Below, piece by piece: positions 28,731 to 41,578 of a stretch of DNA of 41,578 nucleotides (positions are counted from its first letter, which is position 1; every line of letters begins with the position of its first letter). Location: NCBI GenBank assembly GCA_016790075.1, contig JAEUPP010000003.1, forward strand, positions 1 to 41,578, read 5' to 3'. Position numbers and translations under genes: made by a program. The notes under the pieces were generated by a model, which worked only from the letters and a program-made list of their open reading frames with translations, was not told the DNA's origin and ran no database searches. This DNA comes from Rhodanobacteraceae bacterium (GTDB lineage Bacteria > Pseudomonadota > Gammaproteobacteria > Xanthomonadales > Rhodanobacteraceae).

Positions 28731-30767
28731 ATGCCTGTCTCCCGTCTCGTCCTGGGCATGGCCCTGGGGCTGCTGGTTTTTCCTGTGCAAGCAGCCACCG
28801 TATCGCGCCTGACCCCGCCCAGCGAATTGTTCGCCTCGGGCAGCCCGGGTCCGGTCATCTCGCGTTTTCTGCCTGGCCAACGCTTCGACCTGCAGGCTAC
28901 CGTGCAGCCAGACGCAGGTGAAAGCGTGGCCAGTTTCCAGTTCTTCGTCGACGGCGCCTGGGTGAACGGCCCCTTGCCGCTGGGCGGTGGTGCAAACGAT
29001 TCACGGCTCGCACGCAATAGCCTGGTCGTTGAAACTGGTACAGCCGAAACCTGCATCCGCGACGGCAAGACTACCGGCGCCGCAGGCTGTGTGCTGGCCG
29101 CAGGGCTGCCCTCGAACACCGCTGTGGTGAGTTTCCGCGGTTATTCCCATTACGAAGCCGGCCCGCACCAATTCAAGCTGGTCGCGCGTACGAATAGTGG
29201 CCGCACGATCAGTGCAGCGGGCAACTTCGAAGTCGTCGGCATTGACGGCGGCGGGCGCACGGCCAAGAACATCATCATTCTGCTGGGCGATGGCATGGGG
29301 GCCGCGCACCGTACTGCTGCACGCATCATGGCCAAGGGCTATGCACAGGGTAAGGCGCGAGGCATGCTGGCCATGGACACCTTCCCGTTCAGCGGCCAGG
29401 TCATGACCGCATCGCTGAACTCGATCGTGACCGACTCGGCCCCGGGCATGGCCAACTATGTCTCGGGCAACAAGGCCAACAACAACGAAGAGGGCGTCTG
29501 GCCGGACGATACGTTGGCGGCGTTTGACAATCCGCGCATCGAATACCTGGCGGAGTACCTGCATATGCTGCAGGGCAAGTCGCTGGGCATCGTGACCACA
29601 TCAGATGTGTTCGACGCGACGCCGGCAGCCAACGCCGTGCACACGGCGCAGCGCGGCAACGGCACCGGCATCGTCGACCAGTTCCTCGACGAACGTAACA
29701 AGACGGGCCTGACGGTACTCATGGGCGGCGGCCGCAAATGGTTTCTGCCCAACGCCACGGGCAGCACCAGCCCGCAGCCAAGCAACGGTTCGCAGCGCGC
29801 CACACGCAACGACTACGTGCTGCCGGCCGATATTGTCAACGGCTGGGGTGTGGTCGCTGGCAAGATGGATCCGGAGCGTGACCTCATCGCCGATTTCATC
29901 GCTGCCGGATTTGCCTATACCCCGGATAACACAGCCTTGAATGCTGCTTTCGCGCGCGGCACTCCCGACAAGTTGCTCGGCCTGTTCGCGTATTCCAACA
30001 TGAATGTGTCTTACGACAAGATCGCCGGACGTCGCGGCAATCCCGAAGTGGTCAACGCATTCGGCTTCCCGGACCAGCCCCTGCTCGAGGAGATGACCGA
30101 CAAGGCGATCAAGGTGCTGGCGCGCAATCCCAAGGGGTTCGTGCTGACCATCGAAGGGGCTTCTATCGACAAGCAGGCGCATCTCATGGACACCGATCGC
30201 TGGATTCATGATGTGATCGAATTTGATCGCGCAGTCGCCGTCGCCCAGCAGTTCGCCGCGACGAATGCGGACACCCTGGTCATCGTCACCGCCGACCATG
30301 AATGCGCTGGTGCGGCCGTCATCGGTGCGTCCACGTTGAGTTCGGCGCAGCTCGCCGCGGACAAGCTGCGCGGCAAGAACGCCGTCGGTGTTTATGAGGC
30401 GGCCAGGTTCCCGCGTTATGCGATGGCGGCGGACGGCTATCCGGCCACGACCAACGTCGACTACAAGATGCTGATCGGCTACGGCGCGAATGCAGACCGC
30501 TACGAGAACTGGTTGCCCAGCCGCTTCCCGACACGCGATTCGCAGCAGCCGTTCCCGCCAGCGCAGTCGCCGGCCAATCCGGGCGTGCGTAACAAGGATG
30601 AAGGTGCGCTGATCACCGGACAGGTTGCGGGTGACTCGGCGGTGCATACCGGCACGGACATTCCGCTGTCGGCTTACGGCCTTGGCGCGTCGCAGTTCAG
30701 CGGCACGTTCGATAACACCGACGTGTTCTTCAAGCTGGGCCAGCTGGCGGTCGGCGGGGTGAAATAA
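28731..30767 (+). CDS. PhoA-type alkaline phosphatase with an N-terminal beta domain
   Basis: A secreted metal-dependent phosphomonoesterase of 678 residues. Residues 1-21 form a signal peptide. Residues 22-172 form an extra domain of Ig-like character (FDLQATVQPD, SFQFFVDGAW, HQFKLVARTNSGRT). The catalytic domain starts near 175. Active-site features are Asp187 in LLGDGMG, the phosphorylated Ser236 in VTDSAPGMAN, Glu475/Asp480/His484 in IEGASIDKQAH, Asp522-His523 in TADHE and His639 in VHTGTDIPL. All metal ligands of the family appear present. An AAGGA ribosome-binding site precedes the ATG. No Pho box is recognised in the 64-bp upstream gap, so phosphate control is not shown. Confidence 0.93.
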   Translation: MPVSRLVLGMALGLLVFPVQAATVSRLTPPSELFASGSPGPVISRFLPGQRFDLQATVQPDAGESVASFQFFVDGAWVNGPLPLGGGANDSRLARNSLVVETGTAETCIRDGKTTGAAGCVLAAGLPSNTAVVSFRGYSHYEAGPHQFKLVARTNSGRTISAAGNFEVVGIDGGGRTAKNIIILLGDGMGAAHRTAARIMAKGYAQGKARGMLAMDTFPFSGQVMTASLNSIVTDSAPGMANYVSGNKANNNEEGVWPDDTLAAFDNPRIEYLAEYLHMLQGKSLGIVTTSDVFDATPAANAVHTAQRGNGTGIVDQFLDERNKTGLTVLMGGGRKWFLPNATGSTSPQPSNGSQRATRNDYVLPADIVNGWGVVAGKMDPERDLIADFIAAGFAYTPDNTALNAAFARGTPDKLLGLFAYSNMNVSYDKIAGRRGNPEVVNAFGFPDQPLLEEMTDKAIKVLARNPKGFVLTIEGASIDKQAHLMDTDRWIHDVIEFDRAVAVAQQFAATNADTLVIVTADHECAGAAVIGASTLSSAQLAADKLRGKNAVGVYEAARFPRYAMAADGYPATTNVDYKMLIGYGANADRYENWLPSRFPTRDSQQPFPPAQSPANPGVRNKDEGALITGQVAGDSAVHTGTDIPLSAYGLGASQFSGTFDNTDVFFKLGQLAVGGVK

Positions 30768-30836
30768 CAGGCGGTGCGGGCGTGAGCCTGCTCCCCGCTG
30801 GTCTGGCGGGGCAGGGTGTCTTGTCCTGGGTGTCGC

Positions 30837-30865
30837 GGCTCCCGGCGGTTGTGCCGGGGGCCTTT
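30837..30865 (+). terminator. Intrinsic terminator candidate after the alkaline phosphatase
   Basis: A 10-bp stem (GGCTCCCGGC / GCCGGGGGCC, with one G-T pair) and a 6-nt loop are followed by TTT, about 70 bp past the stop codon. The U-tract is short but the stem is strong. The rest of the gap to 31010 holds nothing clear. Confidence 0.5.
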
Positions 30866-31010
30866 CCAAAGCCAGATCGCCCGCCGGGTATCTGCGCCAC
30901 GAGGCCGGCGCGGCGACTTCGTCGCGAAACGAGGTGATGGCACGGCCAGCTGCTGTTGCAGTGGCCTGGGCCGCACCATCCGCAGCGTTCGGGTCCTGCC
31001 GTGAGTTCGT

Positions 31011-31484
31011 CTACAGCCCGAGCTGGGACAGGCCGGGATGGCCCTCCGGTCGCGCACCGTAGGGCCAGTGGAACAGGCGCTGGTCCTCACGGAGTGCCAC
31101 ATCGTTGATGCTGGCGAGGCGCCGCGCCATGCGCCCGTCCGGAGCAAATTCCCAGTTTTCGTTACCGTAGCTGCGCCACCACCGGCCTTCGTCGTCGTGC
31201 CATTCGTAGGCAAAACGCACCGCGATGCGATTGCCGGCGAAGGCCCACAGCTCCTTGATCAAGCGGTACTCGCGCTCTCGCATCCATTTTTCCTTAAGGA
31301 ATGTGTGGATTTGTTCGCGTCCGTGCAGGAAGCGGTCCCGGTTCCGCCAGTGACTGTCCGGGGTATAGGCCAGCACGACCCGGTCGGGGTCGCGGCTGTT
31401 CCAGGCATCCTCGGCCATTCGGACCTTCTGCCTGGCGCCGGCCTCATCAAAAGGCGGCAATGGCGGGCGGCTGGAAGTGTTCAT
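31011..31484 (-). CDS. DUF1348 (NTF2/SnoaL-fold) protein at the end of the bufferin operon
   Basis: A 157-residue cytoplasmic protein. The block from [20 protein letters not shown] through [29 protein letters not shown] and [17 protein letters not shown] is typical of DUF1348 in the nuclear-transport-factor-2 superfamily. Function unknown; related folds bind small hydrophobic ligands or act as isomerases. The open frame extends to 31811, but the family begins at ATG 31484, which overlaps the bufD stop by 4 bp. This coupling makes it a member of the operon rather than a bystander. Confidence 0.88.
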
Positions 31485-31939
31485 CGGGAAGTCTCCCTGT
31501 GGGCAGTCGACGAGCGGCGCATCAGCAGATGATCCATCGATAGTGGTCCTGGGCCGCGCGCGACCAACCAGAGCAACAATGCCGCCCAGGTCATGTGGGT
31601 AGGCCAGGCATGGGGATACACGAAGCACTGGATTACCAAAGTCATTGCCAGCAGTGCCAGTGCGGCGAGGCGGGTGGTCAGGCCCAATACCAGCAGCAGC
31701 GGGAGCAGGTGTTCGAGCAGGGCGGTCAGGTGAGCTGCCCACAGCGGCTCTATCCAGGGCAGGCGGTATTCCTCCTGAAACAGGTACAACGCGTTGTCGT
31801 TGAGCTGCCACCCGTTGACCTTGGTGCGCCCCGATTGCCAGAACACGGCGGCCGGGGCCAAGCGAGTGAAAAGCAGCAGCAGGTTTTCAGGCAGGCTAGA
31901 AAGCAGCCGGCGCGCGTGTTGAATCACGGCGGAGTTCAT
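31481..31939 (-). CDS. bufD: DoxX-family membrane protein (BufD-like)
   Basis: A 152-residue inner-membrane protein with four helices (about 20-38, 63-85, 88-107, 112-128). The DoxX features [34 protein letters not shown] and [17 protein letters not shown] are present. In bufferin loci the DoxX protein (BufD) is encoded with BufA, BufB and BufC; its role is unproven, possibly redox or transport. It overlaps bufC and the DUF1348 gene by 4 bp each. Confidence 0.88.
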
Positions 31940-32700
31940 TGCTTGTTCCTTTGGGTGAAGGTATCGACGCCTACGATCAGGCGTTCGGTGAAAAGGGCGG
32001 CCAGCGCAGTGTCCGGGTCAAACTCGGGGGCCGCCTGGCGGGCCGACTGCAGGGCGTCGATCAGTCGGGCACCTGCCCTCAGGCCCTGGCGCAGCTGGGC
32101 TTCGCCCGGTTGCAGTCGGCGCTGCATGACCTGCGCGTCGGGGCGCCACACCTGCAAGGACACGGGCTGCCACTGCAGTTCAGGCCCGTGGTGTTCCTCG
32201 TCCTGGCGTAGCCAGAGCTGATCAATCGGATACGGCGAGATCAGCCATCGCAGGGCTGGGTGCAATCGCAGCCGGGCCTGCAACAGACCAGCCTCGGGCA
32301 GGGCCGCCAGTGTCTGCGGAGTCAGCGCGGTGGCATCGGCGGCGTGGGTGACGATCTGGCGTGTCCAGTCGAGCTGCGCCAGATCGGCCAGCCAGGGCCA
32401 GGCCTGGAGGGGAGGGAACTTCTGCAGAAATTCAGGAAATTCACTGCCGTATTCCTGCAGTACCGGAGTGCGTGGCGGCGAGCAGGCGATGAATTCGGCC
32501 GCCACCGCGCGAAAGTATTCGCTGCCGACCGCGCGTTCGATGGCGGGATAGCTCGCGCGCAAAGTTTCGAGCAGGGCATGGCGCACGGTTTGCCGATGCA
32601 CGGCCAGGCGTGAGTGCAGAGATTCCGCCAGCGTGGCGGGCGGCGTGAACTCGGCGCTGCTCAGCGCGGTGATCAGATACGGAAACAGCGCCGGTTTCAT
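31936..32700 (-). CDS. bufC: DUF2063 protein, peptide-recognition partner of BufB
   Basis: A 254-residue protein with the N-terminal DUF2063 'putative DNA-binding' helical domain (about 20-110: LAVHRQTVRHALLETLRASYPAIERAVGSEYFRA) and a C-terminal mixed domain. In studied bufferin systems, DUF2063 (BufC) proteins bind the precursor and pair with the DUF692 enzyme; they do not bind DNA. I start at ATG 32700, which overlaps the bufB stop by 4 bp; the longer frame to 32805 only re-reads bufB. Confidence 0.9.
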   Translation of the reverse strand: MKPALFPYLITALSSAEFTPPATLAESLHSRLAVHRQTVRHALLETLRASYPAIERAVGSEYFRAVAAEFIACSPPRTPVLQEYGSEFPEFLQKFPPLQAWPWLADLAQLDWTRQIVTHAADATALTPQTLAALPEAGLLQARLRLHPALRWLISPYPIDQLWLRQDEEHHGPELQWQPVSLQVWRPDAQVMQRRLQPGEAQLRQGLRAGARLIDALQSARQAAPEFDPDTALAALFTERLIVGVDTFTQRNKQ

Positions 32701-33557
32701 GCAGCCGCCCCGGGGCCAGGCGTGGTCCTGACCCGCTGAGTTGCGGCTCTTGCCCGCTCTGCTTCCCGCGTCAGGACATTCCAGTCCGGCAGGTCCTGGT
32801 CCCACTCGATCAGCGTGGGAACAGGACCGGTGATCGCAAGTGCCTCAGCGTAGAGGTCAAGTACGAGTTCGCCGATAGCGCCGGCGTGATCGTCAATCAG
32901 GATTGTGCTGCCATCAGCGAGGGACTGCCGGCGATGGCCAGCCAGATGGAACTGGGCCACGGCCTGCAATGGAAAGCGGCGCAGGTAGTCGCGGGGGGCA
33001 ATGCCCTGGTTGTGGCAGCTGACGACGACATTGTTCAGGTCCAGCAGCAGGCCGCAGCCGGTAGCGCGCTGCAGCGCCTCCAGGAATTGAGGCTCGGCCA
33101 GCGGATCGGCGGCCGGCAGGTAACGCGAAGGGTTCTCGATCAGCAAGGTACGCCCCAGCACCTGCTGCGCCTCGTCGACGTGAGCGCAGAGCCGTACCAG
33201 GGCAGCGTCGTCGTAGTCCAGCGGAAGCAGGTCCGGCAGGTATCGCGCGGCATGGCTGCTCCAGGCCAGGTGCTCCGAAAACACGGCTGCCTCATGCCGG
33301 GCCAGCAAGCCGGCCAGGCGCTGCAGATGAAGCCGGTCAGGGCGTTCGCTGCCACCCAGCGACAGGCCCACGCCGTGTACGAACAGCGGGCGCTCGCTAC
33401 GCAGGCGTTGCAACTGCCGGTGTGGTAACCCGCCGGCGCCCAGATAGTTCTCGGCGTGAACCTCAAAGAAGTCCACGGCCGCCATGTCCGCCAGTGCCGA
33501 TTCGAAATGCACGGGCTTGAAGGCAAGGCCAATGGCAGGAACGGTTTCTACGGACAT
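32697..33557 (-). CDS. bufB: DUF692/MNIO iron oxygenase modifying the bufferin precursor
   Basis: A 286-residue TIM-barrel enzyme of the multinuclear non-heme iron oxidative (MNIO) family. Likely iron ligands, numbered from this start, are in FFEVHAENYLG (Glu32, His34), VHGVGLSLGG (His61), SEHLAW (His96), IENPSRY (Glu141), LLDLNNVVVS (Asp173), FHLAGH (His204, His208), DDHAG (His224) and LIEWD (Glu251). In characterised systems it turns precursor cysteines into thiooxazoles. I chose ATG 33557; GTG 33569 is an alternative, and neither has a strong ribosome-binding site, so it may rely on coupling to bufA1 18 bp upstream. It overlaps bufC by 4 bp. Confidence 0.93.
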   Translation of the reverse strand: MSVETVPAIGLAFKPVHFESALADMAAVDFFEVHAENYLGAGGLPHRQLQRLRSERPLFVHGVGLSLGGSERPDRLHLQRLAGLLARHEAAVFSEHLAWSSHAARYLPDLLPLDYDDAALVRLCAHVDEAQQVLGRTLLIENPSRYLPAADPLAEPQFLEALQRATGCGLLLDLNNVVVSCHNQGIAPRDYLRRFPLQAVAQFHLAGHRRQSLADGSTILIDDHAGAIGELVLDLYAEALAITGPVPTLIEWDQDLPDWNVLTREAERARAATQRVRTTPGPGAAA

Positions 33558-33575
33558 GGCGGCTTGCACATACGC

Positions 33576-33884
33576 TCAGTGCGAGACAGGACGCTGCACG
33601 GGAGTCAGTGATCCCATGCCCTGCGGTGTTTCGATGCGGGTGCAGGTTCCTTTGGGCACCAGCTTCCAGGCATTGCCCTGGTAGTCGGCCTTGGAGGTAC
33701 CGGCGCAGGACGTGCCGGGGCCTGCGGCACAGTCGTTCTGTCCGGCCAGGGAAATGCCATAGCATTTTTCCTTGCCCTGGTTGGACGGGAGTTCCGACGG
33801 CAGTTCGGCGGCCTGGGCGATGCCGGCGGCCAGGGCGTTGCCCAGGGCCAGTGCCATGAGGGCGGCAAAATCTCGACGTTTCAT
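33576..33884 (-). CDS. bufA1: DUF2282 bufferin precursor peptide (BufA1 type)
   Basis: A 102-residue precursor of a ribosomally made, modified peptide. It has an unusually long Sec signal peptide (about 1-26, MKRRDFAAL...) and a core with four cysteines at 41, 52, 60 and 81. These sit in the family pattern [28 protein letters not shown] and LVPKGTC. Bufferins of this type are exported and bind copper after BufB modifies two of the cysteines; that is family knowledge, not shown here. The tail [10 protein letters not shown] is also typical. ATG 33884 is chosen over the longer frame because the signal peptide starts there. It is the first bufferin gene, 52 bp after the YHS gene. Confidence 0.93.
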
Positions 33885-33936
33885 GTCAGTCGCTCGATGA
33901 GACCGGTGCGGCGGCGGGCGCCGCACCGGTGTGTCG

Positions 33937-34437
33937 TTACAGGGAGGCCGGAGTCTTGTCCTTGATCAGGGGCCAGTTGGCTTCGGCCTTGGCGATATTT
34001 GCCGGGATGTTTTCCGACCACTTCTTGAAAACGTCGGCATTGACGTTCAGGTAAAGCTTGCCGTCGACCACCTTGAACGCCATGGGATCGACGTCAAGCT
34101 TCTTGCCCAGGGCCGCGCCCATGGCGCAAAAGCCGCCAAATTGCGGAACGTAGTGTTCCGGGTTGCTCTGGAAGGTCTTGCGGTTGGCCTCGGAGGCGAA
34201 GTGGTAGGTCGCTCCGCCGTGGCTGGCGGAGAACTTGGCGTCACCCTTGGTCGGCTTGCCGGCGGCGAAATAGGCGACCGGGTCGTAGCCATGAAGAATC
34301 ACGGCGCCGGCTTCGGTATTGATGGCCGAGGTGGATTCTGCGTCGTAGGCGAAGACTGACGTGGGAACCGCAGCGGCGCCAGCTAGGGCGAGGGCCAGGA
34401 CGGCGCTGAGCTTCAGGTGCAGGGAAATACGGGACAT
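33937..34437 (-). CDS. Exported YHS-domain protein
   Basis: A 166-residue protein with a signal peptide (about 1-30, cut before YDAESTS) and a YHS domain (about 46-115: [44 protein letters not shown]). YHS domains are thought to bind metals; the single Cys104 and several histidines could serve. The start at ATG 34437 has GGAG 6 nt upstream. It lies 42 bp after the AhpD-like gene and 52 bp before bufA1 on the same strand, which points to a metal-related job beside the bufferin. Confidence 0.88.
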
Positions 34438-34479
34438 GGCAACTCCAGTGGATTGTTGGTAAAGGGAAATCGACAAGGA

Positions 34480-35037
34480 TCAGGCTGCGCGGTTGACGTC
34501 GCGCAGGTTCACGCGGGGGAAATCGACCGTGGTCTGGGCAACGTTGTTGACGTAGTTGGTCAACACATTGAGGGCGACGTTGGTGATCACTTCGATCACC
34601 GTGTCCGCAGTGAAACCAGCGGCGAGAAAGGTCTGCAGTGATTCGTCGCTGACCTGGCCGCGGCTGGCCAGCACTGCCTGGGTGAACTGCAGCAGGGCGT
34701 GGCTGCGGGCATCAGCCGAGCGCCCTTCGCGAGCAGCGCTGAGTTCATCCTCGCTGAGCTTGGCCACGTTCTTGCCAAGGTAGGTATGCGCCGACAGGCA
34801 GTACTCGCAGCCATTGGCCTGGGCCACCGTCAGGGCAATGCGCTCGCGATCGGCGGCGTCGAGCCCGCCACTGGCGACGGCGGCGCTGAAGCCGAGATAG
34901 GCGCCCAGCCCAGCGGGACTATGGGCCAGTACCTTCATCAGATTGGGCACCATGCCTAGCTGCTGTTTTACTGCGGCAAGCAACGGCTGCGACGCGGAGG
35001 GGGCGGTTTCTACGGAAGGAATGGGCAGGCGGTTCAT
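34480..35037 (-). CDS. AhpD-like (carboxymuconolactone decarboxylase family) peroxidase-related protein
   Basis: A 185-residue all-helical protein of the CMD/AhpD family. The redox motif GCEYCLSAHTYLGK has Cys77, Cys80 and His84, the arrangement used for peroxide reduction in AhpD. VPNLMKVLAHSPAGL and FTADTVIEVITNVALNVLTNY are other family blocks. ATG 35037 follows a GGAG ribosome-binding site. It is the first gene of the minus-strand operon and faces the LysR gene across a 167-bp gap holding a perfect 19-bp dyad. Substrate unknown. Confidence 0.88.
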   Translation of the reverse strand: MNRLPIPSVETAPSASQPLLAAVKQQLGMVPNLMKVLAHSPAGLGAYLGFSAAVASGGLDAADRERIALTVAQANGCEYCLSAHTYLGKNVAKLSEDELSAAREGRSADARSHALLQFTQAVLASRGQVSDESLQTFLAAGFTADTVIEVITNVALNVLTNYVNNVAQTTVDFPRVNLRDVNRAA

Positions 35038-35164
35038 GGGGGCTCCGGTATGGGCTAGTGGCGACGGCGGGCTGCCGTTGGTCGGGCGCACTCTAGGCAG
35101 GCGTGTCCGTGCCGAGAATCACCGCGAGCCGCAGGGCGCCTTTGCAAAAAAGGAAAGAATCGGG

Positions 35165-35183
35165 TGCTGAGCTAGACTCAGCA
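35165..35183. promoter_or_regulatory. Perfect LysR-type operator TGCTGAGCTAGACTCAGCA
   Basis: Seven-base perfect arms (TGCTGAG / CTCAGCA) around a 5-bp centre, with a T-N11-A core as LysR-type regulators prefer. It ends 21 bp before the lysR ATG and lies about 128 bp upstream of the divergent AhpD-like gene. That is the standard position for an autoregulating LysR protein that also controls its divergent neighbour. Confidence 0.65.
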
Positions 35184-35204
35184 GGTTCTTGCTGGCGGGA
35201 CGCA

Positions 35205-36107
35205 ATGGATCAACTTGAGGAAATGGCCGTGTTTACCGCCGTCGCCGAGCAGGGCGGTTTTGCGGCGGCGTCACGCCAGTTGAATCTTTCGGCGGCGACG
35301 GTGACCCGTGCCGTGGCGGCGCTGGAACAGGCGATTGGTGCCGAATTGTTCGTACGCACTACCCGTTTCGTACGGTTGACCGAGGTCGGCCAGCACTACC
35401 TGGATGATTGCCGGCGCATCCTGCGCCAGGTTGAAGAGGCCGAGGCTCAGGCGGCTGGTGCGCACCTGGTCCCTCAGGGGCAGCTGGTACTGGCGGCACC
35501 AACCTTGTTCGGCCAGCAACTGGTGGTTCCGGTCGTGGTGGATTTTCTCGCGCAGTACCCGTCACTGGCGGTTCGCCTGCTGCTGGTAGACCGGCAGGTG
35601 CAGCTTGGCGAGGAAGGGATAGACGCTGCGTTTCGCATCGGAGAGCTACCCGACTCCAGCCTGGTGGCAATGCCCTTGGGATATGTGCGCCGGGTCGTTT
35701 GCGCCAGTCCTGGCTACCTGGCGTCCCGGGGCTACCCGTCGCATCCTTCCGAACTGGGGGCGCACCATCTGGTCGTTTCGGTGGCGGACACGCGGCACGA
35801 TACCTGGCACTTTGTCGATGCCGGGCGGACTCTGGACCTGACGATCCAGCCCCGGCTGACGGTTTCCACCAATGCGGCTGCCATCGCTGCGGCCGAGGCC
35901 GGTGCAGGATTCACCCGCGTAATGTCCTATCAAGTGGCAGAGGCGCTGGCGCAAGGGCGGCTCGAGCGCGTGCTGCAGCCTTTTGAAGCCAAGCCGCTGC
36001 CGGTCTGGCTGGCCAATCTGGAGGGGCGTCGTGCGGCGGCCAAGCTGCGGGTTTTCCTGACGTTTGCCCGCGACCGTCTGCATGGCCATGCGGCCTTGCT
36101 GGGCTAG
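35205..36107 (+). CDS. LysR-family regulator, likely of the bufferin operon
   Basis: A 300-residue transcription factor. Residues 1-60 form the winged helix-turn-helix (FTAVAEQGGFAAASRQLNLSA), followed by a linker helix and a substrate-binding domain (about 90-295). I start at ATG 35205 (MDQLEEMAVF), which matches the family, rather than 34 codons upstream. It is divergent from the AhpD-YHS-buf operon and has the 19-bp dyad just before it, so it probably controls that operon and itself. It is closely similar to the next gene, 8 bp downstream. The inducer is unknown. Confidence 0.92.
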   Translation: MDQLEEMAVFTAVAEQGGFAAASRQLNLSAATVTRAVAALEQAIGAELFVRTTRFVRLTEVGQHYLDDCRRILRQVEEAEAQAAGAHLVPQGQLVLAAPTLFGQQLVVPVVVDFLAQYPSLAVRLLLVDRQVQLGEEGIDAAFRIGELPDSSLVAMPLGYVRRVVCASPGYLASRGYPSHPSELGAHHLVVSVADTRHDTWHFVDAGRTLDLTIQPRLTVSTNAAAIAAAEAGAGFTRVMSYQVAEALAQGRLERVLQPFEAKPLPVWLANLEGRRAAAKLRVFLTFARDRLHGHAALLG

Positions 36108-36115
36108 ATCAGGCC

Positions 36116-37012
36116 ATGGACCGTGTCGCCGAGATGCGCACCCTGATTGCAGTCGCTGAAGCCGGCAGCTTCAGCAAGGCCGCCAGCCGGCTCGGGCTGA
36201 CGCCACCGACGGTCACACGCAGTATCGCTGCGCTGGAGCAGCGGCTGGGCGCGCGCCTGATCATCCGCACGACGCGCAGTTTGCGTCTGACCGACGCCGG
36301 TGTGCACTTCGTCGAGGACGCAAAACGTGTGCTGGCCGAAATGGAGTTCGCCCATCAAACGGCCGCCGGTCAGCATGGCAGGGCCCGCGGCATGCTGCGC
36401 CTGACCGCGCCCGTGCTGTTTGGTGAGATGTATCTGATGCCGGTACTGCGTGAATTCCTGCAGCAGCATACGGAGATCAGCGCCAGCGTCCTGCTGCTGG
36501 ACCGGATCACCAACCTGATCGAGGAGGGGCTTGACCTGGCCCTGCGGATCGGGCCGGCCGACGACACCGGACTGGAGGTCGTCGAACTGGGCCGGGTGCG
36601 GCGCATGGTCGTCGCAGCGCCCTCCTATCTGCAGCGATACGGGCGGCCGCAGCAGCCACAGGATCTGGCACAGCATCGCATCGTGCACTCGGTGGGGGCC
36701 AGCGCCAGCCTCAACTGGAATTTCGGCCAGGGGGAGCATGCCTTTGGCGTACGCATCAACCCGGTGCTCAGCGTAAGCACCTTGCGCGCCGCGATCAGTG
36801 AGGCGCGAGCCGGCTGGATGCTGACGCGGGTGCTCTCGTATCAGGTACAGGACGACCTTGCAGCCGGCCATCTGGTGGCGCTTCTTGAGGAGTTCGAGCC
36901 GGCACCGTTGCCGGTATGCCTGGTATTTCCGCGCAGCCGGATTCCTTCGGCGCGGCTGATGGCTTTTGTCGAACTGGCCAGCCAGAGGCTGGCCACCGTG
37001 CTGGAGACCTGA
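36116..37012 (+). CDS. Second LysR-family regulator
   Basis: A 298-residue paralogue of the preceding gene (MDRVAEMRTLIAVAEAGSFS; the helix-turn-helix is at about 18-40). The effector domain has LTAPVLFGEMYLMPVLREFL and VSTLRAAISEARAGWMLTRVLSYQV, much like its neighbour. With only 8 bp between them, both are likely read from one mRNA. The ATTGC/GCAAT half-sites 9-56 bp past its stop, before the GST gene, make the GST and reductase genes its likely targets. Confidence 0.92.
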   Translation: MDRVAEMRTLIAVAEAGSFSKAASRLGLTPPTVTRSIAALEQRLGARLIIRTTRSLRLTDAGVHFVEDAKRVLAEMEFAHQTAAGQHGRARGMLRLTAPVLFGEMYLMPVLREFLQQHTEISASVLLLDRITNLIEEGLDLALRIGPADDTGLEVVELGRVRRMVVAAPSYLQRYGRPQQPQDLAQHRIVHSVGASASLNWNFGQGEHAFGVRINPVLSVSTLRAAISEARAGWMLTRVLSYQVQDDLAAGHLVALLEEFEPAPLPVCLVFPRSRIPSARLMAFVELASQRLATVLET

Positions 37013-37020
37013 ACGGCATC

Positions 37021-37068
37021 ATTGCGCTTTCTGCAATGGCAGATTGCCGGCCGTGTGGCTTCAGCAAT
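37021..37068. promoter_or_regulatory. Paired ATTGC/GCAAT half-sites before the GST gene
   Basis: ATTGC at 37021-37025 and GCAAT at 37033-37037 make a 17-bp dyad with a T-N11-A core (T37023 to A37035). A second pair, ATTGC 37043-37047 and GCAAT 37064-37068, follows. The cluster fits a LysR-type recognition plus activation site, about 50 bp before the GST ATG at 37118. Confidence 0.5.
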
Positions 37069-37117
37069 GCGGGCGCGGAGTGGACTATTTCGCCACCCCA
37101 TCCCATCGGAGATCTCC

Positions 37118-37735
37118 ATGAGCCTCACCCTGCATCGCTTCCCCCTGTCTGGTCACGCGCACCGCGCCGAACTCTTCCTGTCGCTGCTGGGACTCAAGGC
37201 CAGGCTAGTGGATGTCGACTTGCGCAACGGCGAACACAAGCAGCCGGCTTTCCTCACGCTCAATCGTTTCGGTCAGGTGCCGGTGCTGGAAGATGGCGAT
37301 GATGTGATCGCGGATTCCAATGCCATTCTGGTCTATCTGGCGCGCAAGTACGGCAATGAACAATGGCTGCCGTCGGATCCGCTGCAGGCTGCCCAGGTTG
37401 AGCGCTGGTTGTCGGTAGCGGCCGGCCCTTTGGCTTCCGGCCCGGCCCGCGCCCGTCTGATCACGGTTTTCGGCGCCCGTTACAGCGCCGAGGAAACCAT
37501 CGCCAGCGCACATGCCTTGCTCAACGTGCTTGAGGCCGAACTGCAAGGGCGCGAATGGCTGGTCGGCACTCACCCGAGCATCGCCGATATCGCTGGCTAC
37601 ACCTATGTCGCCCATGCCCCCGAAGGCAATGTTTCGCTCGATGCTTATCCGGCTGTGCGCGCCTGGCTGGCTCGTATTGAATCCTTGCCCGGCTTTGTCC
37701 CCATGCAGGAAACCCGGGTCGGGCTGAGGGCCTGA
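37118..37735 (+). CDS. Glutathione S-transferase
   Basis: A 205-residue cytosolic GST. The N-terminal thioredoxin-fold domain (1-80) contains [21 protein letters not shown], the cis-Pro region [21 protein letters not shown] and YLARKYG. The all-helical C-terminal domain contains [19 protein letters not shown]. Such enzymes conjugate glutathione to electrophiles. The start at ATG 37118 has GGAG upstream; the longer frame to 37022 would cover the operator region. It is followed by the fusion reductase after 74 bp, and both probably respond to the LysR pair. Confidence 0.9.
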
Positions 37736-37809
37736 TGGCTGCGGCCCCGGTGGCGACCGGTGCGCCGTCCAGCGGTGTGAGAACGTGATCCGACAGGCAG
37801 GAGACAGGC

Positions 37810-39834
37810 ATGCAAGCCAATTCACCCTTTCATGCCGGCGAAATCGCCATCCAGCAACGGCTGGGTGTGGCTGAGCGCATGGCCGAGTTCGGCCGGCGTG
37901 TTGTGCGTGACTACATGCCCGACCAGCATCGGCAGTTCTATGCGCACCTGCCATTTCTCGTGCTGGCGACGGTCGACGATGAAGGTCGGCCCTGGGCCAG
38001 CCTGCTGGAAGGGGAGCCGGGTTTCGCCCATTCCCCGGCTCCGACCCGGCTGGATCTGGCGGCAACTCCCGCTGCGGTCGACCCGGCGCGGGCAGGGTGG
38101 CGGCCGGGGAGTGCAATAGGCCTGCTCGGTATCGAGCTGCCTACGCGCCGGCGCAACCGGGTCAACGGTCTGCTGCGGCAAGGCTCCCGGGGGTTGCAGC
38201 TGGAGGTCGAGCACTCCTTCGGCAATTGCCCGCAGTACATCCAGGCACGTGGCCTGCAGTTCGCCTGTCCACCGGGCAGTCAGGCCGCAGGAGCGGTCAG
38301 TCGTGGCGAGATCCTGGACGAGCCGGCCCGGGCGATGATTGCTGCCGCCGACACTTTTTTTGTGGCCAGTTATGTCGACCACGCCGATGGCCGCCGCTCC
38401 GTCGATGCCTCGCACCGCGGGGGCAAGCCCGGTTTCGTTCAGGTGCAAGGAAATCGCCTGAGCATTCCGGATTTCGCCGGCAATCTGCACTTCAATACAT
38501 TGGGCAATTTTGTACTCAATCCGCGCGCCGGCCTGCTGTTCGTCGACTTCGGCAGTGGCGACGTGCTTCAGCTCAGTGGCCGGGTCGTACTGGATCTTGA
38601 TGCTGATGAAGCGCGCTTCTTCCAGGGCGCGGAGCGCCTCTGGCATCTGCAGGTGGAGCAATGGGTGCTGCGCCGCGGTGCGCTGGCCCTGCGCGGCGAT
38701 GCCGGACAGATGTCCATGAACTCGGCGTTGACGGGTTCCTGGGAGGAGGCTGACGCACGCCGTCAGGCGGAACAGATGCGTGAACAATGGCGCTCGTTCC
38801 GTATCACGCGTATCGACCTGGAGTCGGCTGCCGTGAAGTCCTTCTGGCTGGAGCCGACCGACGGCCGAGGGCTGAACGTGTTCAAAGCAGGCCAGCATCT
38901 GCCGGTACGGGCTGTGCTGGAGGTCGGTCAGGCCCCGGTTGAGCGCAGCTATACCTTGTCGTTGGCGCCGTCGGACGGCGCTTACCGGCTGAGTATCCGC
39001 AGGCAAGGCCGTTTTTCGCGTTTCATGCACGAGCATGTGCAGGTAGGGGACGAGATCGAGGCTCGGGCGCCGCGGGGCAACTTCAGCGTCGATGCCTTGC
39101 AGCCACGGCCGCTGGTACTGCTGTCGGCCGGCATCGGCATTACCCCGATGCTGGCCCTGTTGCGTCATGTGATCTATGAGGGTATGCGCAAGCGGCGCAT
39201 TCGCCCGACCTGGTTCATCCATGGCAGCCGCAGCGAGTCCGACCGTGCATTTTCCGCTGAGATCGACCGCCTCAACGAATCGGTCGGCGGTGCCGTACGG
39301 GTGCTGCAGGCGTTGACTGAACCCGGTCCCGATGCGCGAGAAGGCAAGGACTTCCACTTCCGGGGCCGGCTCGATCTGGATCTGCTGAAGTCGGTGTTGC
39401 CGTTTGACGACTTCGACTTCTACCTGTGCGGCCCGCCTGCGTTCATGCAGGACCTGTATGCCGGGTTGCGCCGCCTGCATGTGCCGGATGAACGCATCCA
39501 CGCCGAATCCTTCGGCCCGGCGGGCTTGCGTCGCGACGCCGCGGCGCCCTTGCCGGCGATTTCTTCACAGCCCGTGCCGGTATCGTTCGCCCGTTCCGGC
39601 AAGGAAGCGCGTTGGTCGCCCGGCAGCGGCAACCTGCTTGAGCTCGCCCAGACGCGGGGCCTCAATCCGGAACATTCCTGCCGGCAGGGGTTATGTGGCA
39701 GCTGCAGCCACGCGCTGAAGTCCGGCAGCGTGACCTATGCAGCGACTCCGGCCAGCGACATTGCACCCGGACAGGTTCTGCTTTGCCAGGCGCTGCCTGC
39801 AGAGGGCAGCGGTCCGATTGTGATCGAGGCTTGA
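37810..39834 (+). CDS. PNPOx-like/ferredoxin-NAD(P) reductase/[2Fe-2S] fusion protein
   Basis: A 674-residue three-part redox protein. Residues about 45-290 are a flavin-binding pyridoxamine-5'-phosphate-oxidase-like domain (LPFLVLATVDDEGRPWASL, PGFVQVQGNRLSIPDFAGNL). Residues about 330-570 are a ferredoxin-reductase-type FAD/NAD(P) module (PVERSYTLSLAP, LLSAGIGITPMLALLRH, DFYLCGPPAFMQDL). Residues about 590-674 are a plant-type [2Fe-2S] ferredoxin with Cys624-x4-Cys629-x2-Cys632-x26-Cys659. The layout suggests electron flow from NAD(P)H through FAD and the iron-sulfur cluster to the PNPOx-like flavin site. The substrate is unknown. An AGGAG ribosome-binding site precedes ATG 37810. The next 220 bp hold no recognisable feature. 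Confidence 0.9.
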   Translation: MQANSPFHAGEIAIQQRLGVAERMAEFGRRVVRDYMPDQHRQFYAHLPFLVLATVDDEGRPWASLLEGEPGFAHSPAPTRLDLAATPAAVDPARAGWRPGSAIGLLGIELPTRRRNRVNGLLRQGSRGLQLEVEHSFGNCPQYIQARGLQFACPPGSQAAGAVSRGEILDEPARAMIAAADTFFVASYVDHADGRRSVDASHRGGKPGFVQVQGNRLSIPDFAGNLHFNTLGNFVLNPRAGLLFVDFGSGDVLQLSGRVVLDLDADEARFFQGAERLWHLQVEQWVLRRGALALRGDAGQMSMNSALTGSWEEADARRQAEQMREQWRSFRITRIDLESAAVKSFWLEPTDGRGLNVFKAGQHLPVRAVLEVGQAPVERSYTLSLAPSDGAYRLSIRRQGRFSRFMHEHVQVGDEIEARAPRGNFSVDALQPRPLVLLSAGIGITPMLALLRHVIYEGMRKRRIRPTWFIHGSRSESDRAFSAEIDRLNESVGGAVRVLQALTEPGPDAREGKDFHFRGRLDLDLLKSVLPFDDFDFYLCGPPAFMQDLYAGLRRLHVPDERIHAESFGPAGLRRDAAAPLPAISSQPVPVSFARSGKEARWSPGSGNLLELAQTRGLNPEHSCRQGLCGSCSHALKSGSVTYAATPASDIAPGQVLLCQALPAEGSGPIVIEA

Positions 39835-40055: not shown

Positions 40056-40421
40056 TCAAGGCTTGAGTTCGTCAAATGACGAAAATTCTTCGTCAATAGT
40101 TATTTCCCAATAATCGCTATCGACCGCTTCTAGCTCGACTAACGTGTGACCACGATCCGTTCCGATAAGTTTGAGATCGTAGATATCTGTCAACCCTGAC
40201 GCAAATTTTCCAAGACCTTCAGCGGTAAACAAATAACCAGCGGGTCGTTGTCTAACTTCGTTCTCGAAATCCACCATTCCCATTCCGTCTGGTGCGGCGC
40301 CAGTCCCGTAAAACTCCATCAGCCTCCAGCTTACCGAGTCAGTCATCGAAAGACGGCCAATAACGTCTACAAGCATTATCTTGTTTCCATGTTGCCACAT
40401 AGCGAAGCGGAAGCTTTTCAT
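40056..40421 (-). CDS. Probable immunity protein of the RHS toxin
   Basis: A 121-residue acidic protein (C-terminus TIDEEFSSFDELKP) with no signal peptide or membrane helix and no family that I recognise. It directly follows the RHS toxin gene with a 4-bp overlap, the classic place for a cognate immunity gene. It is clearly less GC-rich than the rest of the window, typical of swapped toxin-immunity tips. Function is inferred from position. Confidence 0.65.
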   Translation of the reverse strand: MKSFRFAMWQHGNKIMLVDVIGRLSMTDSVSWRLMEFYGTGAAPDGMGMVDFENEVRQRPAGYLFTAEGLGKFASGLTDIYDLKLIGTDRGHTLVELEAVDSDYWEITIDEEFSSFDELKP

Positions 40422-41578
40422 GTGCCACCTATTGGAGGTTTTCCACCTGCCGGAGGATTCGGTTCTTTCGGAGGTTCTGGGCTTCCGCGCCGCGGTGTTC
40501 CGCCAGTAGGATTTGGGGTGCGAATATGGTCATGAGGGTTGGTGTGATTGCCCGGCCTTCCATGGTCCGTGAAGTCTCGAGTCTTGACTTCTTTGCCTTT
40601 TTCATCAAATTCTCGCGCTTGCGGATATTTCCCCTTGCTTCCGTTCTTCGTGCCGAGTTGTGTATGCGGTACCCCTACCGCCTCTGCATCTGGTACTGGT
40701 TCACCGCTTACGGGATCTCTGGGCAACGGCCTGTCGGGAAAGGCATCCCCTGGCTTCACTCCTTCGCCCGGATTTCTGCTAGCGTCTTCGCCCGGAGTGG
40801 GCTGTGGCGCTTCGGAGTCATCGACGACTTCGTTGTAGATTGCCACACCAGCGGCGCCGATAATCACACCCGCCACCGCCCCGATGATTGCCCCTCCAGG
40901 GCATCCAGGGCCTGTCAGGGCGCAGCCTGCGGCAGCCCCTGCAATCGGATTTCGCCCATCCGGATCAACATTCTTGTATGGATTGTTATTCGCATACCAG
41001 TAGCGATTAAACGAACCCGGGTTGGCCGCTACCGGATCGGTGGCCATAAACCGCCCCGCATACGGATCGTAGTAACGGGCCTGCATATAGATCAGCCCGG
41101 TTTCCGCGTCAGCGACATGGCCGGTGAAGCTGGGCTTGGATAGCGGTGTGGGTCCCCAGCCGTAGGGTTTGTAGTCATCACGGCCGGAGGGCGCACCGGC
41201 GCTGTTGCTGGTGCGGACCGGTGAGCCCAGTGCATCGGTGTGAATGTACTGGCGGCCGGAGGTGCCGTCTTCGGCGATCAGATGGCGGTCGAGGTAGAGA
41301 TAGCGCTTGTTACCGCCAGTGGAAGCGGGATACGGTGTATCGCCGGTCTGGAAGCCGCTCTTGAAGATGCCGTCGCTGGCGGGACCACTTTGGTACATCA
41401 GCTGCCCCGACTGGCTATAGACCTGCACGGTGGTCACACCGGCCTTGGTCACCTGGGTACGGCGGCCATGCCCGTCGTAGCGGTACGTCGCGGTAGCCGG
41501 GTTAACGGCGGTGACGCGGTCGGCCAAGTCCACGACAAAGGTTTGTGCCGCGCCGCTGGTGGTGCGCGCCGTGGCGCG
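40418..41578 (-). CDS. C-terminal part of an RHS-repeat polymorphic toxin (partial)
   Basis: The frame is open to the right edge, so this is the 3' part of a longer gene. It begins with YD-repeat-like sequence (TYRYDGHGRRTQV, YLYLDRHLIAEDGTSG, YIHTDALGSPVRT). The RHS core then follows (TGLIYMQARYYDPYAGRF, NNNPYKNVDPDGR). After DPDGR comes a Gly/Ala-rich hydrophobic stretch (GAIIGAVAGVIIGAAGVAIY) and a variable tip with HTQLGTKNGSKGKYPQAREF and RDFTDHGRPGNHTNPHDH. The tip resembles what I recall as polymorphic toxin type 24, a probable nuclease, but this is from memory. It ends in a Pro-rich tail. RHS toxins are delivered by type VI or other secretion systems; none is in the window. Confidence 0.85.
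   Translation of the reverse strand, partial: RATARTTSGAAQTFVVDLADRVTAVNPATATYRYDGHGRRTQVTKAGVTTVQVYSQSGQLMYQSGPASDGIFKSGFQTGDTPYPASTGGNKRYLYLDRHLIAEDGTSGRQYIHTDALGSPVRTSNSAGAPSGRDDYKPYGWGPTPLSKPSFTGHVADAETGLIYMQARYYDPYAGRFMATDPVAANPGSFNRYWYANNNPYKNVDPDGRNPIAGAAAGCALTGPGCPGGAIIGAVAGVIIGAAGVAIYNEVVDDSEAPQPTPGEDASRNPGEGVKPGDAFPDRPLPRDPVSGEPVPDAEAVGVPHTQLGTKNGSKGKYPQAREFDEKGKEVKTRDFTDHGRPGNHTNPHDHIRTPNPTGGTPRRGSPEPPKEPNPPAGGKPPIGGT

Follow-up and report, generated by a model that had tools for sequence, protein, structure and literature searches.

Bufferins are known as large families of lean copper-buffering systems with four genes each. In the Buf1 type, the core consists of a precursor, an MNIO enzyme, a DUF2063 protein and a DoxX protein, with further conserved genes found in extremely low proportions, and the precursor cysteines carry thiooxazoles which chelate copper (PMC12452194; see also PMC12668002). 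Gene sets of comparable content are the Pep clusters of Pseudomonas fluorescens, in which a short peptide is encoded with DUF692 and DUF2063 proteins, Pep1 adding DoxX and Pep3 a LysR regulator (PMC8719888), and a related DoxX-MNIO gene set of Haemophilus that is induced by HOCl (PMC7907618). Here we analyzed a 41,578-nucleotide stretch of the Rhodanobacteraceae bacterium assembly GCA_016790075.1 (contig JAEUPP010000003.1), hereafter the window, where a Buf1 core is flanked by genes for an AhpD-like protein, a YHS domain protein and a DUF1348 protein. The pairing of a YHS gene with bufferin genes proved to be a recurrent feature that we did not find in print in the open-licence literature, and the seven-gene set has so far been seen once. 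In that literature no paper was found with both YHS and DUF692 or UPF0276, and none among the matches listed was recognized as tying YHS to bufferin genes.

An ordinary bufferin core with an unusual extension

The seven genes lie on the minus strand at 31011-35037 in the order ahpD, yhs, bufA1, bufB, bufC, doxX and duf1348, all of them open and with ATG starts. An earlier note on this DNA had described this arrangement with 4-bp overlaps at the last three junctions (bufB/bufC, bufC/doxX and doxX/duf1348), which is borne out by the open reading frames and by Pfam matches that exceed the cut-offs for 7 of 7 proteins. The remaining gaps measure 42 bp (ahpD-yhs), 52 bp (yhs-bufA) and 18 bp (bufA-bufB), and from this spacing we infer that the seven genes form one transcript.

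Judging by sequence, the core of the operon is an ordinary Buf1 bufferin cluster, as the note had also recognized from its DUF2282-DUF692-DUF2063-DoxX genes. BufA1 (33576-33884, minus strand like the other six genes), the DUF2282 bufferin precursor, scores 93.4 bits in Pfam over a cut-off of 22.4 and has a signal-like N terminus by inspection and four cysteines, as in relatives. BufB (32697-33557), the MNIO bufferin maturase, passes NF050167 (323.3 over 310) and scores 302.3 with Pfam MbnB_TglH_ChrH. BufC (31936-32700), a DUF2063/RRE partner protein of PME type 1, and the membrane protein DoxX (31481-31939) exceed their Pfam cut-offs (71.1 over 27.2 and 62.3 over 23.6, respectively), and both score under the cut-offs of the stricter Hvf models (64.0 against 142 for HvfC; 45.1 against 80 for HvfX). 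The signal region of BufA begins MKRRDF, with a Tat-like RRxF, and in this it presumably resembles a Tat motif; the feature was flagged in 2 of 34 distinct BufA rows, in the other of which (L205) it is present only in an overlong gene call.

Like the published Buf1 (DUF2282) clusters, for instance those of Caulobacter vibrioides and the captophorins, the window has a four-cysteine DUF2282 precursor, an MNIO BufB, a DUF2063 BufC and DoxX in the same order (PMC12452194), but it has LysR, AhpD, YHS and DUF1348 genes in addition. The earlier statement that AhpD, YHS and DUF1348 fall outside the published core agrees with that paper, whose main text, its supplements aside, contains no occurrence of YHS, AhpD, carboxymuconolactone, SnoaL, LysR or DUF1348. 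That a LysR gene stands next to an MNIO cluster is not new, since Pep3 includes one (PMC8719888). Pep3 differs from the window in having a COG3767 peptide and a DMT transporter, and YHS has 0 occurrences in the text of the Pep paper.

YHS genes recur beside bufABCD in other lineages

The largest set of YHS-linked bufferin loci comes from f14, one gammaproteobacterial family from which 147 genomes were drawn. These genomes hold 54 DUF2282 loci (46 genomes), and at 33 of the 54 (29 genomes) a YHS match stands directly upstream on the same strand, the matched parts lying 128 to 594 bp apart; the other 21 are without one. Where both genes were called, a thioredoxin-like CxxC gene separates YHS from bufA at 10 of 18 linked loci. 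Among 15 longer regions from this family, a thioredoxin gene occupies that position in 8, and an AraC-like gene, identified by eye, adjoins YHS in 8. In one f14 region (L228), a DUF1348 gene and YHS are 1.7 kb apart, with no AhpD labeled there.

The pairing is also found on plasmids. From 81 records matching the window's YHS or 78 matching that of Thalassobaculum, 13 YHS neighborhoods were chosen by hand, and bufABCD was present in 2 of them, those of Thalassobaculum sp. OXR-137 and Aminobacter sp. SS-2016, with no bufABCD within 4 to 5 kb in the other 11. In the Thalassobaculum plasmid YHS is upstream of bufABCD, with a sigma factor and NrsF downstream, and in the Aminobacter plasmid (NZ_AP017988.1) it is downstream of bufABCD, after a GDCCVxC (seleno)protein gene. 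This last gene (L248:3595-3852), placed between doxX and YHS, represents another cysteine/selenocysteine family beside bufferin genes. The f14 and plasmid operons resemble the window in having a YHS gene from its YHS family next to bufABCD, but AraC-like or sigma/NrsF genes stand where the window has LysR; some f14 operons have thioredoxin in place of AhpD, and the BufB lineages differ from that of the window.

In a BufB tree, the YHS-linked rows of f14 form one group against the other labeled rows (support 100/97), while the window BufB joins five same-order BufBs, none of them with YHS as a neighbor (98/95), and the Thalassobaculum and Aminobacter BufBs are found elsewhere in the same larger clade (97/94). 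The smallest well-supported set holding the window BufB in another tree comprised 30 rows. A topology test rejected holding the window BufB with the f14 clade (approximately unbiased (AU) test, p 0.00057) and did not reject its union with Thalassobaculum (p 0.067). Given that the window and f14 BufBs fall in separate clades, the YHS-buf pairing most simply arose at least twice.

Several observations weigh against this conclusion. The f14 BufB clade holds 30 rows, 25 of them YHS-linked and 5 without YHS beside them, so losses do happen. A first, less clean BufB data set did not reject one clade (p 0.079), the groups for the AU test were named after the trees had been seen, and the window BufB sits on a long branch. 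In YHS trees, holding the window YHS with the f14 YHS clade was borderline (AU p 0.046) or not rejected (p 0.225); in one of these trees the window YHS itself groups with two rows (97/80) that are, by path, the same-order places L059 and L060, with no bufferin genes nearby. A single old joining followed by many losses or replacements could still account for the distribution.

The pairing is also rare on a wider scale, and as a set the three accessory genes show no conservation next to bufABCD. Thirty order-level MNIO regions around close BufB relatives, mostly from best matches and one only 3.8 kb long, contained no YHS or DUF1348 homolog and one AhpD-like gene ~5 kb away, and on these results we rejected the idea that relatives in the order keep all the accessory genes next to bufABCD. 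With matches to E 1e-6 counted, YHS occurs in 24 of 250 genomes of the order including the window's, none of the others being from its family, and of 15 regions drawn from the order's other 32 YHS places G158 alone has a BufB-like gene, ~4.5 kb from a distant YHS. A phylum-wide sample of 398 drawn genomes gave 112 DUF2282 loci, spread over 102 genomes. When matches to E 1e-15 are counted, YHS lies within 3 kb at just 5 of these 112 loci, namely the window and four loci in three f14 genomes, and conversely DUF2282 lies within 3 kb of 5 of 121 YHS places; DUF1348 comes within the same distance at 1 of the 112 DUF2282 loci, the window itself. AhpD, YHS and DUF1348 all beside bufABCD were seen in no genome besides the window's. 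The earlier note had made conservation of these genes beside bufABCD in relatives its test: for the set it failed within the order, and for YHS it was answered by recurrence in other lineages.

The accessory genes occur as a module without bufferin genes

Clusters of AhpD, YHS, DUF1348 and cysteine hydrolase genes were found on Phaeobacter inhibens pP30_b (L247), in the order DUF1348-cysteine hydrolase-YHS-CMD, and in genome G530 (L223), where a TetR gene stands beside AhpD-DUF1348-hydrolase-YHS (TetR and hydrolase by eye). The pP30_b genes are annotated as a nuclear transport factor 2 family protein (DUF1348) and a carboxymuconolactone decarboxylase (CMD), with identities to the window proteins of 65% and 39%, respectively. 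Three of the four gene families of these clusters are also in the window operon, but the clusters have other regulators and no bufferin genes in the stretches shown, and the window operon is without the isochorismatase-like hydrolase. We rejected the 65% identity of the DUF1348 proteins as evidence of a connection, since 259 of 264 plasmid records matching the Phaeobacter copy are 60-80% alike; because DUF1348 is widespread and well conserved, such a value is unspecific, which takes away from the case for a shared module. The cysteine hydrolases of L247 and L223 are 86% identical, and each stands with DUF1348, YHS and AhpD in a four-gene module.

Smaller combinations are found as well. G329 has hydrolase-YHS-DUF1348 with ahpF and ahpC adjoining on the opposite strand (hydrolase and ahpFC by eye), AhpD-YHS pairs occur on their own in G079, G043, G119 and G123, a DoxX-like gene following in two (L078 and L081), and in G506 LysR stands beside AhpD-YHS. 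DUF1348-YHS pairs within 3 kb number 3 including the window, against ~0.06 by chance. A Klebsiella plasmid carries LysR, DUF1348 and a peroxidase-related enzyme together, and the neighbors at L074, identified by eye, are old yellow enzyme, GST, glyoxalase-like and alcohol dehydrogenase genes. DsbD and DsbA are near one such YHS place and glutaredoxin near another. These neighbors of the module genes are the company of thiol and electrophile defense; other YHS neighborhoods show no genes of this kind.

In the window, the AhpD-like protein (34480-35037) is a CMD protein (Pfam CMD, 57.5 bits) with a CxxC motif (CEYC) and, by inspection, no signal peptide. It passes TIGR00778, the AhpD core domain (48.6 over 27.8), falls just under the cut-off of TIGR01926, peroxidase-related enzyme (78.6 against 81.8), and has 6e8l as a relative in the PDB. 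The DUF1348 protein (31011-31484; 216 bits; PDB 2imj) is SnoaL/NTF2-like.

A conserved cysteine in the YHS protein

The YHS protein (33937-34437) is a member of the YHS domain-containing (seleno)protein family (NF041384, 149.7 over 70; Pfam YHS, 37.0) with a signal-like N terminus by inspection and a single cysteine, Cys104, in GGFC. Residues 102-104 (GFC) fit a Gx(C/U) motif, C104 is conserved in 71 of 72 other aligned family rows, and exactly one cysteine follows residue 40 in 68 of 73. According to a 2026 review, NF041384 has selenocysteine members with the motif GxU, and TIGR01926 AhpD-like proteins have CxxU (PMC13188914). Selenocysteine at the conserved cysteine, both in the YHS family and in AhpD's own or a close family, points to redox chemistry.

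The earlier note had taken YHS for a metal-binding family. The YHS domain of a Mycobacterium phlei cyclase is copper-responsive, and its site is thought to consist of one Asp and three Cys (PMC4626032). When these ligands were mapped by eye, the window YHS was found to retain D52 but to have A55, A81 and N85 where the cysteines are expected. With the three ligand cysteines missing, we rejected a classical copper-binding YHS/TRASH site, and metal binding through that site is unsupported; the family is one of cysteine/selenocysteine proteins. The AlphaFold model of the protein is confident over the domain and gave no strong structural match in structure comparison.

Regulation and genomic setting

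A divergent LysR gene, absent from the earlier description, stands beside ahpD across an intergenic stretch of 167 bp (LysR1, 35205-36107, plus strand; Pfam HTH_1 and LysR_substrate), and from its position LysR1 is likely the regulator of the operon. A 7-bp palindrome at 35165-35183 has a T-N11-A spacing, which we take to be the LysR-box pattern; we rejected it as evidence, as perfect palindromes with 7-bp arms occur at ~0.2 per 167 bp in the window. A sigma-70 consensus scan of 30700-35400 gave 0 sites (0.3 expected in shuffles). Folding revealed a perfect, GC-rich 12-bp hairpin without a T-run between yhs and bufA (33902-33930, minus strand), the 66-nt stretch that was folded reaching -28 kcal/mol (z -3.27). 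The hairpin could be a processing or attenuation element, but it could also separate the expression of the two genes, which would speak against a single unit.

A DNA search of the genus covered 8 genomes including the window's own. All 7 others have matches on the left side of the operon, within 26.0 to 30.8 kb, and none has a DNA match longer than ~60 bp at 31.0 to 35.0 kb. In the relative G012, tsf- and rpsB-like genes, identified by eye, follow the alkaline phosphatase gene. Taken together, these results indicate that the operon sits in a variable region of this species.

On the far side of LysR1, positions 36116-39834 (plus strand) hold a second LysR, a GST and a long ferredoxin-reductase-like gene, with a long DNA match in 1 of the 7 genus relatives (G255). 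The contig ends in a fragment, identified by eye, of an Rhs-like repeat protein (40418-41578), where the GC content goes down to 0.535. The same genome has a second MNIO locus on another contig (C64:21772-22581, L001), whose precursor, by eye, joins an EF-hand-like sequence to EGKCG repeats, and it thus carries two bufferin-type systems.

Bufferins and thiol redox genes

We consider it probable that the locus is a Buf1 bufferin operon fused with an independent thiol-redox/electrophile-defense module (LysR, AhpD-like, YHS and DUF1348) whose genes flank bufABCD on both sides. This reading builds on the gene content, the family membership of the proteins, the recurrence of YHS-buf pairs across distinct BufB lineages and the presence of the module in places that lack bufferin genes. 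From these we can sketch the biochemical roles, inducer and co-transcription that such a unit might have. In response to oxidant, electrophile or copper stress, LysR1 would activate the unit. AhpD, as a cytosolic CxxC dithiol protein, would hold the BufA cysteines reduced, a job which the thioredoxin between YHS and bufA could do in many f14 operons, and BufB and BufC would convert the central BufA cysteines into thiooxazoles. The modified peptide would be exported and bind copper, DoxX would serve the membrane step, and the exported YHS protein, next to the peptide in the periplasm, may use its single cysteine to act as a thiol oxidoreductase or peroxidase-like partner. DUF1348 may handle a small reactive organic product. 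The protection of the precursor by a CxxC protein and the joint action of YHS and peptide in the periplasm draw on PMC12452194, PMC7907618 and the gene order. As AhpD looks cytosolic and YHS exported from their N termini, the two are unlikely to pass electrons to one another directly, a point on the other side of the balance.

More tentatively, bufferins in general may have a dedicated redox arm that was assembled more than once, in which thioredoxin or an AhpD-like protein, as the cytosolic CxxC component, would hold the precursor cysteines in reduced form, ready to become thiooxazoles, during copper or oxidant stress, and an exported single-cysteine YHS partner would react in the periplasm with the copper-bufferin or its oxidized groups, copper buffering and thiol peroxide/electrophile defense being one pathway. 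The earlier proposal of an extended system that joins metal sequestration to oxidant defense survives in part, in that the redox link is backed by the recurrence of YHS beside bufABCD, often with a thioredoxin, but the accessory set is not conserved.

A shared trigger may be all that links the two gene groups, although we would not favor it: the bufferin and AhpD/YHS/DUF1348 genes would stand under one promoter for the same stress (copper, HOCl or electrophiles) with no biochemical link. Recurrence of gene content does not separate co-regulation from cooperation, YHS and AhpD genes occur in varied clusters under differing regulators (TetR, AraC and LysR), and the H. influenzae MNIO-DoxX genes are HOCl-induced in a paper whose text names neither YHS nor AhpD (PMC7907618). 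That YHS neighbors bufABCD in two or more distinct BufB lineages, and that a thioredoxin gene often stands between YHS and bufA in f14 (10 of 18 loci), argues against so loose a connection. It seems unlikely that redox and bufferin genes are chance neighbors, separate units that came to abut after an insertion with the yhs-bufA hairpin between them. Such a history would fit the perfect 12-bp hairpin and the recent or variable region implied by the missing DNA matches in the genus, but not the single strand, the short gaps, the 4-bp doxX/duf1348 overlap and the YHS genes beside bufABCD in other lineages.

The YHS protein itself could be read in two further ways. It might be a periplasmic copper-binding chaperone that passes copper to or from the bufferin, as the copper response of the M. 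phlei cyclase domain (PMC4626032) and a signal-like N terminus shared with the bufferin would allow; we regard this as improbable, given that only the Asp of the Asp-plus-three-Cys site is kept and that nearly all family members have a single cysteine in the region after residue 40. We give very little credence to YHS as a second substrate of BufB, with the MNIO enzyme modifying the invariant Cys104. MNIOs have been proposed to modify proteins as well as peptides (PMC12452194), and the YHS gene neighbors bufB and encodes an apparently exported protein with a single invariant cysteine, but most YHS genes are far from DUF2282 and the selenocysteine variants suggest a free redox residue.

A recurrent partner that is redox-like, not metal-binding, would help explain the repeated appearance of MNIO clusters in oxidant responses, and the YHS-buf pairing would give the uncharacterized YHS (seleno)protein family a testable function. 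The operons named here are concrete places to ask whether thiooxazole formation needs a reductase, and the recurrence of YHS beside bufferin genes hints that copper storage and redox defense may work together.

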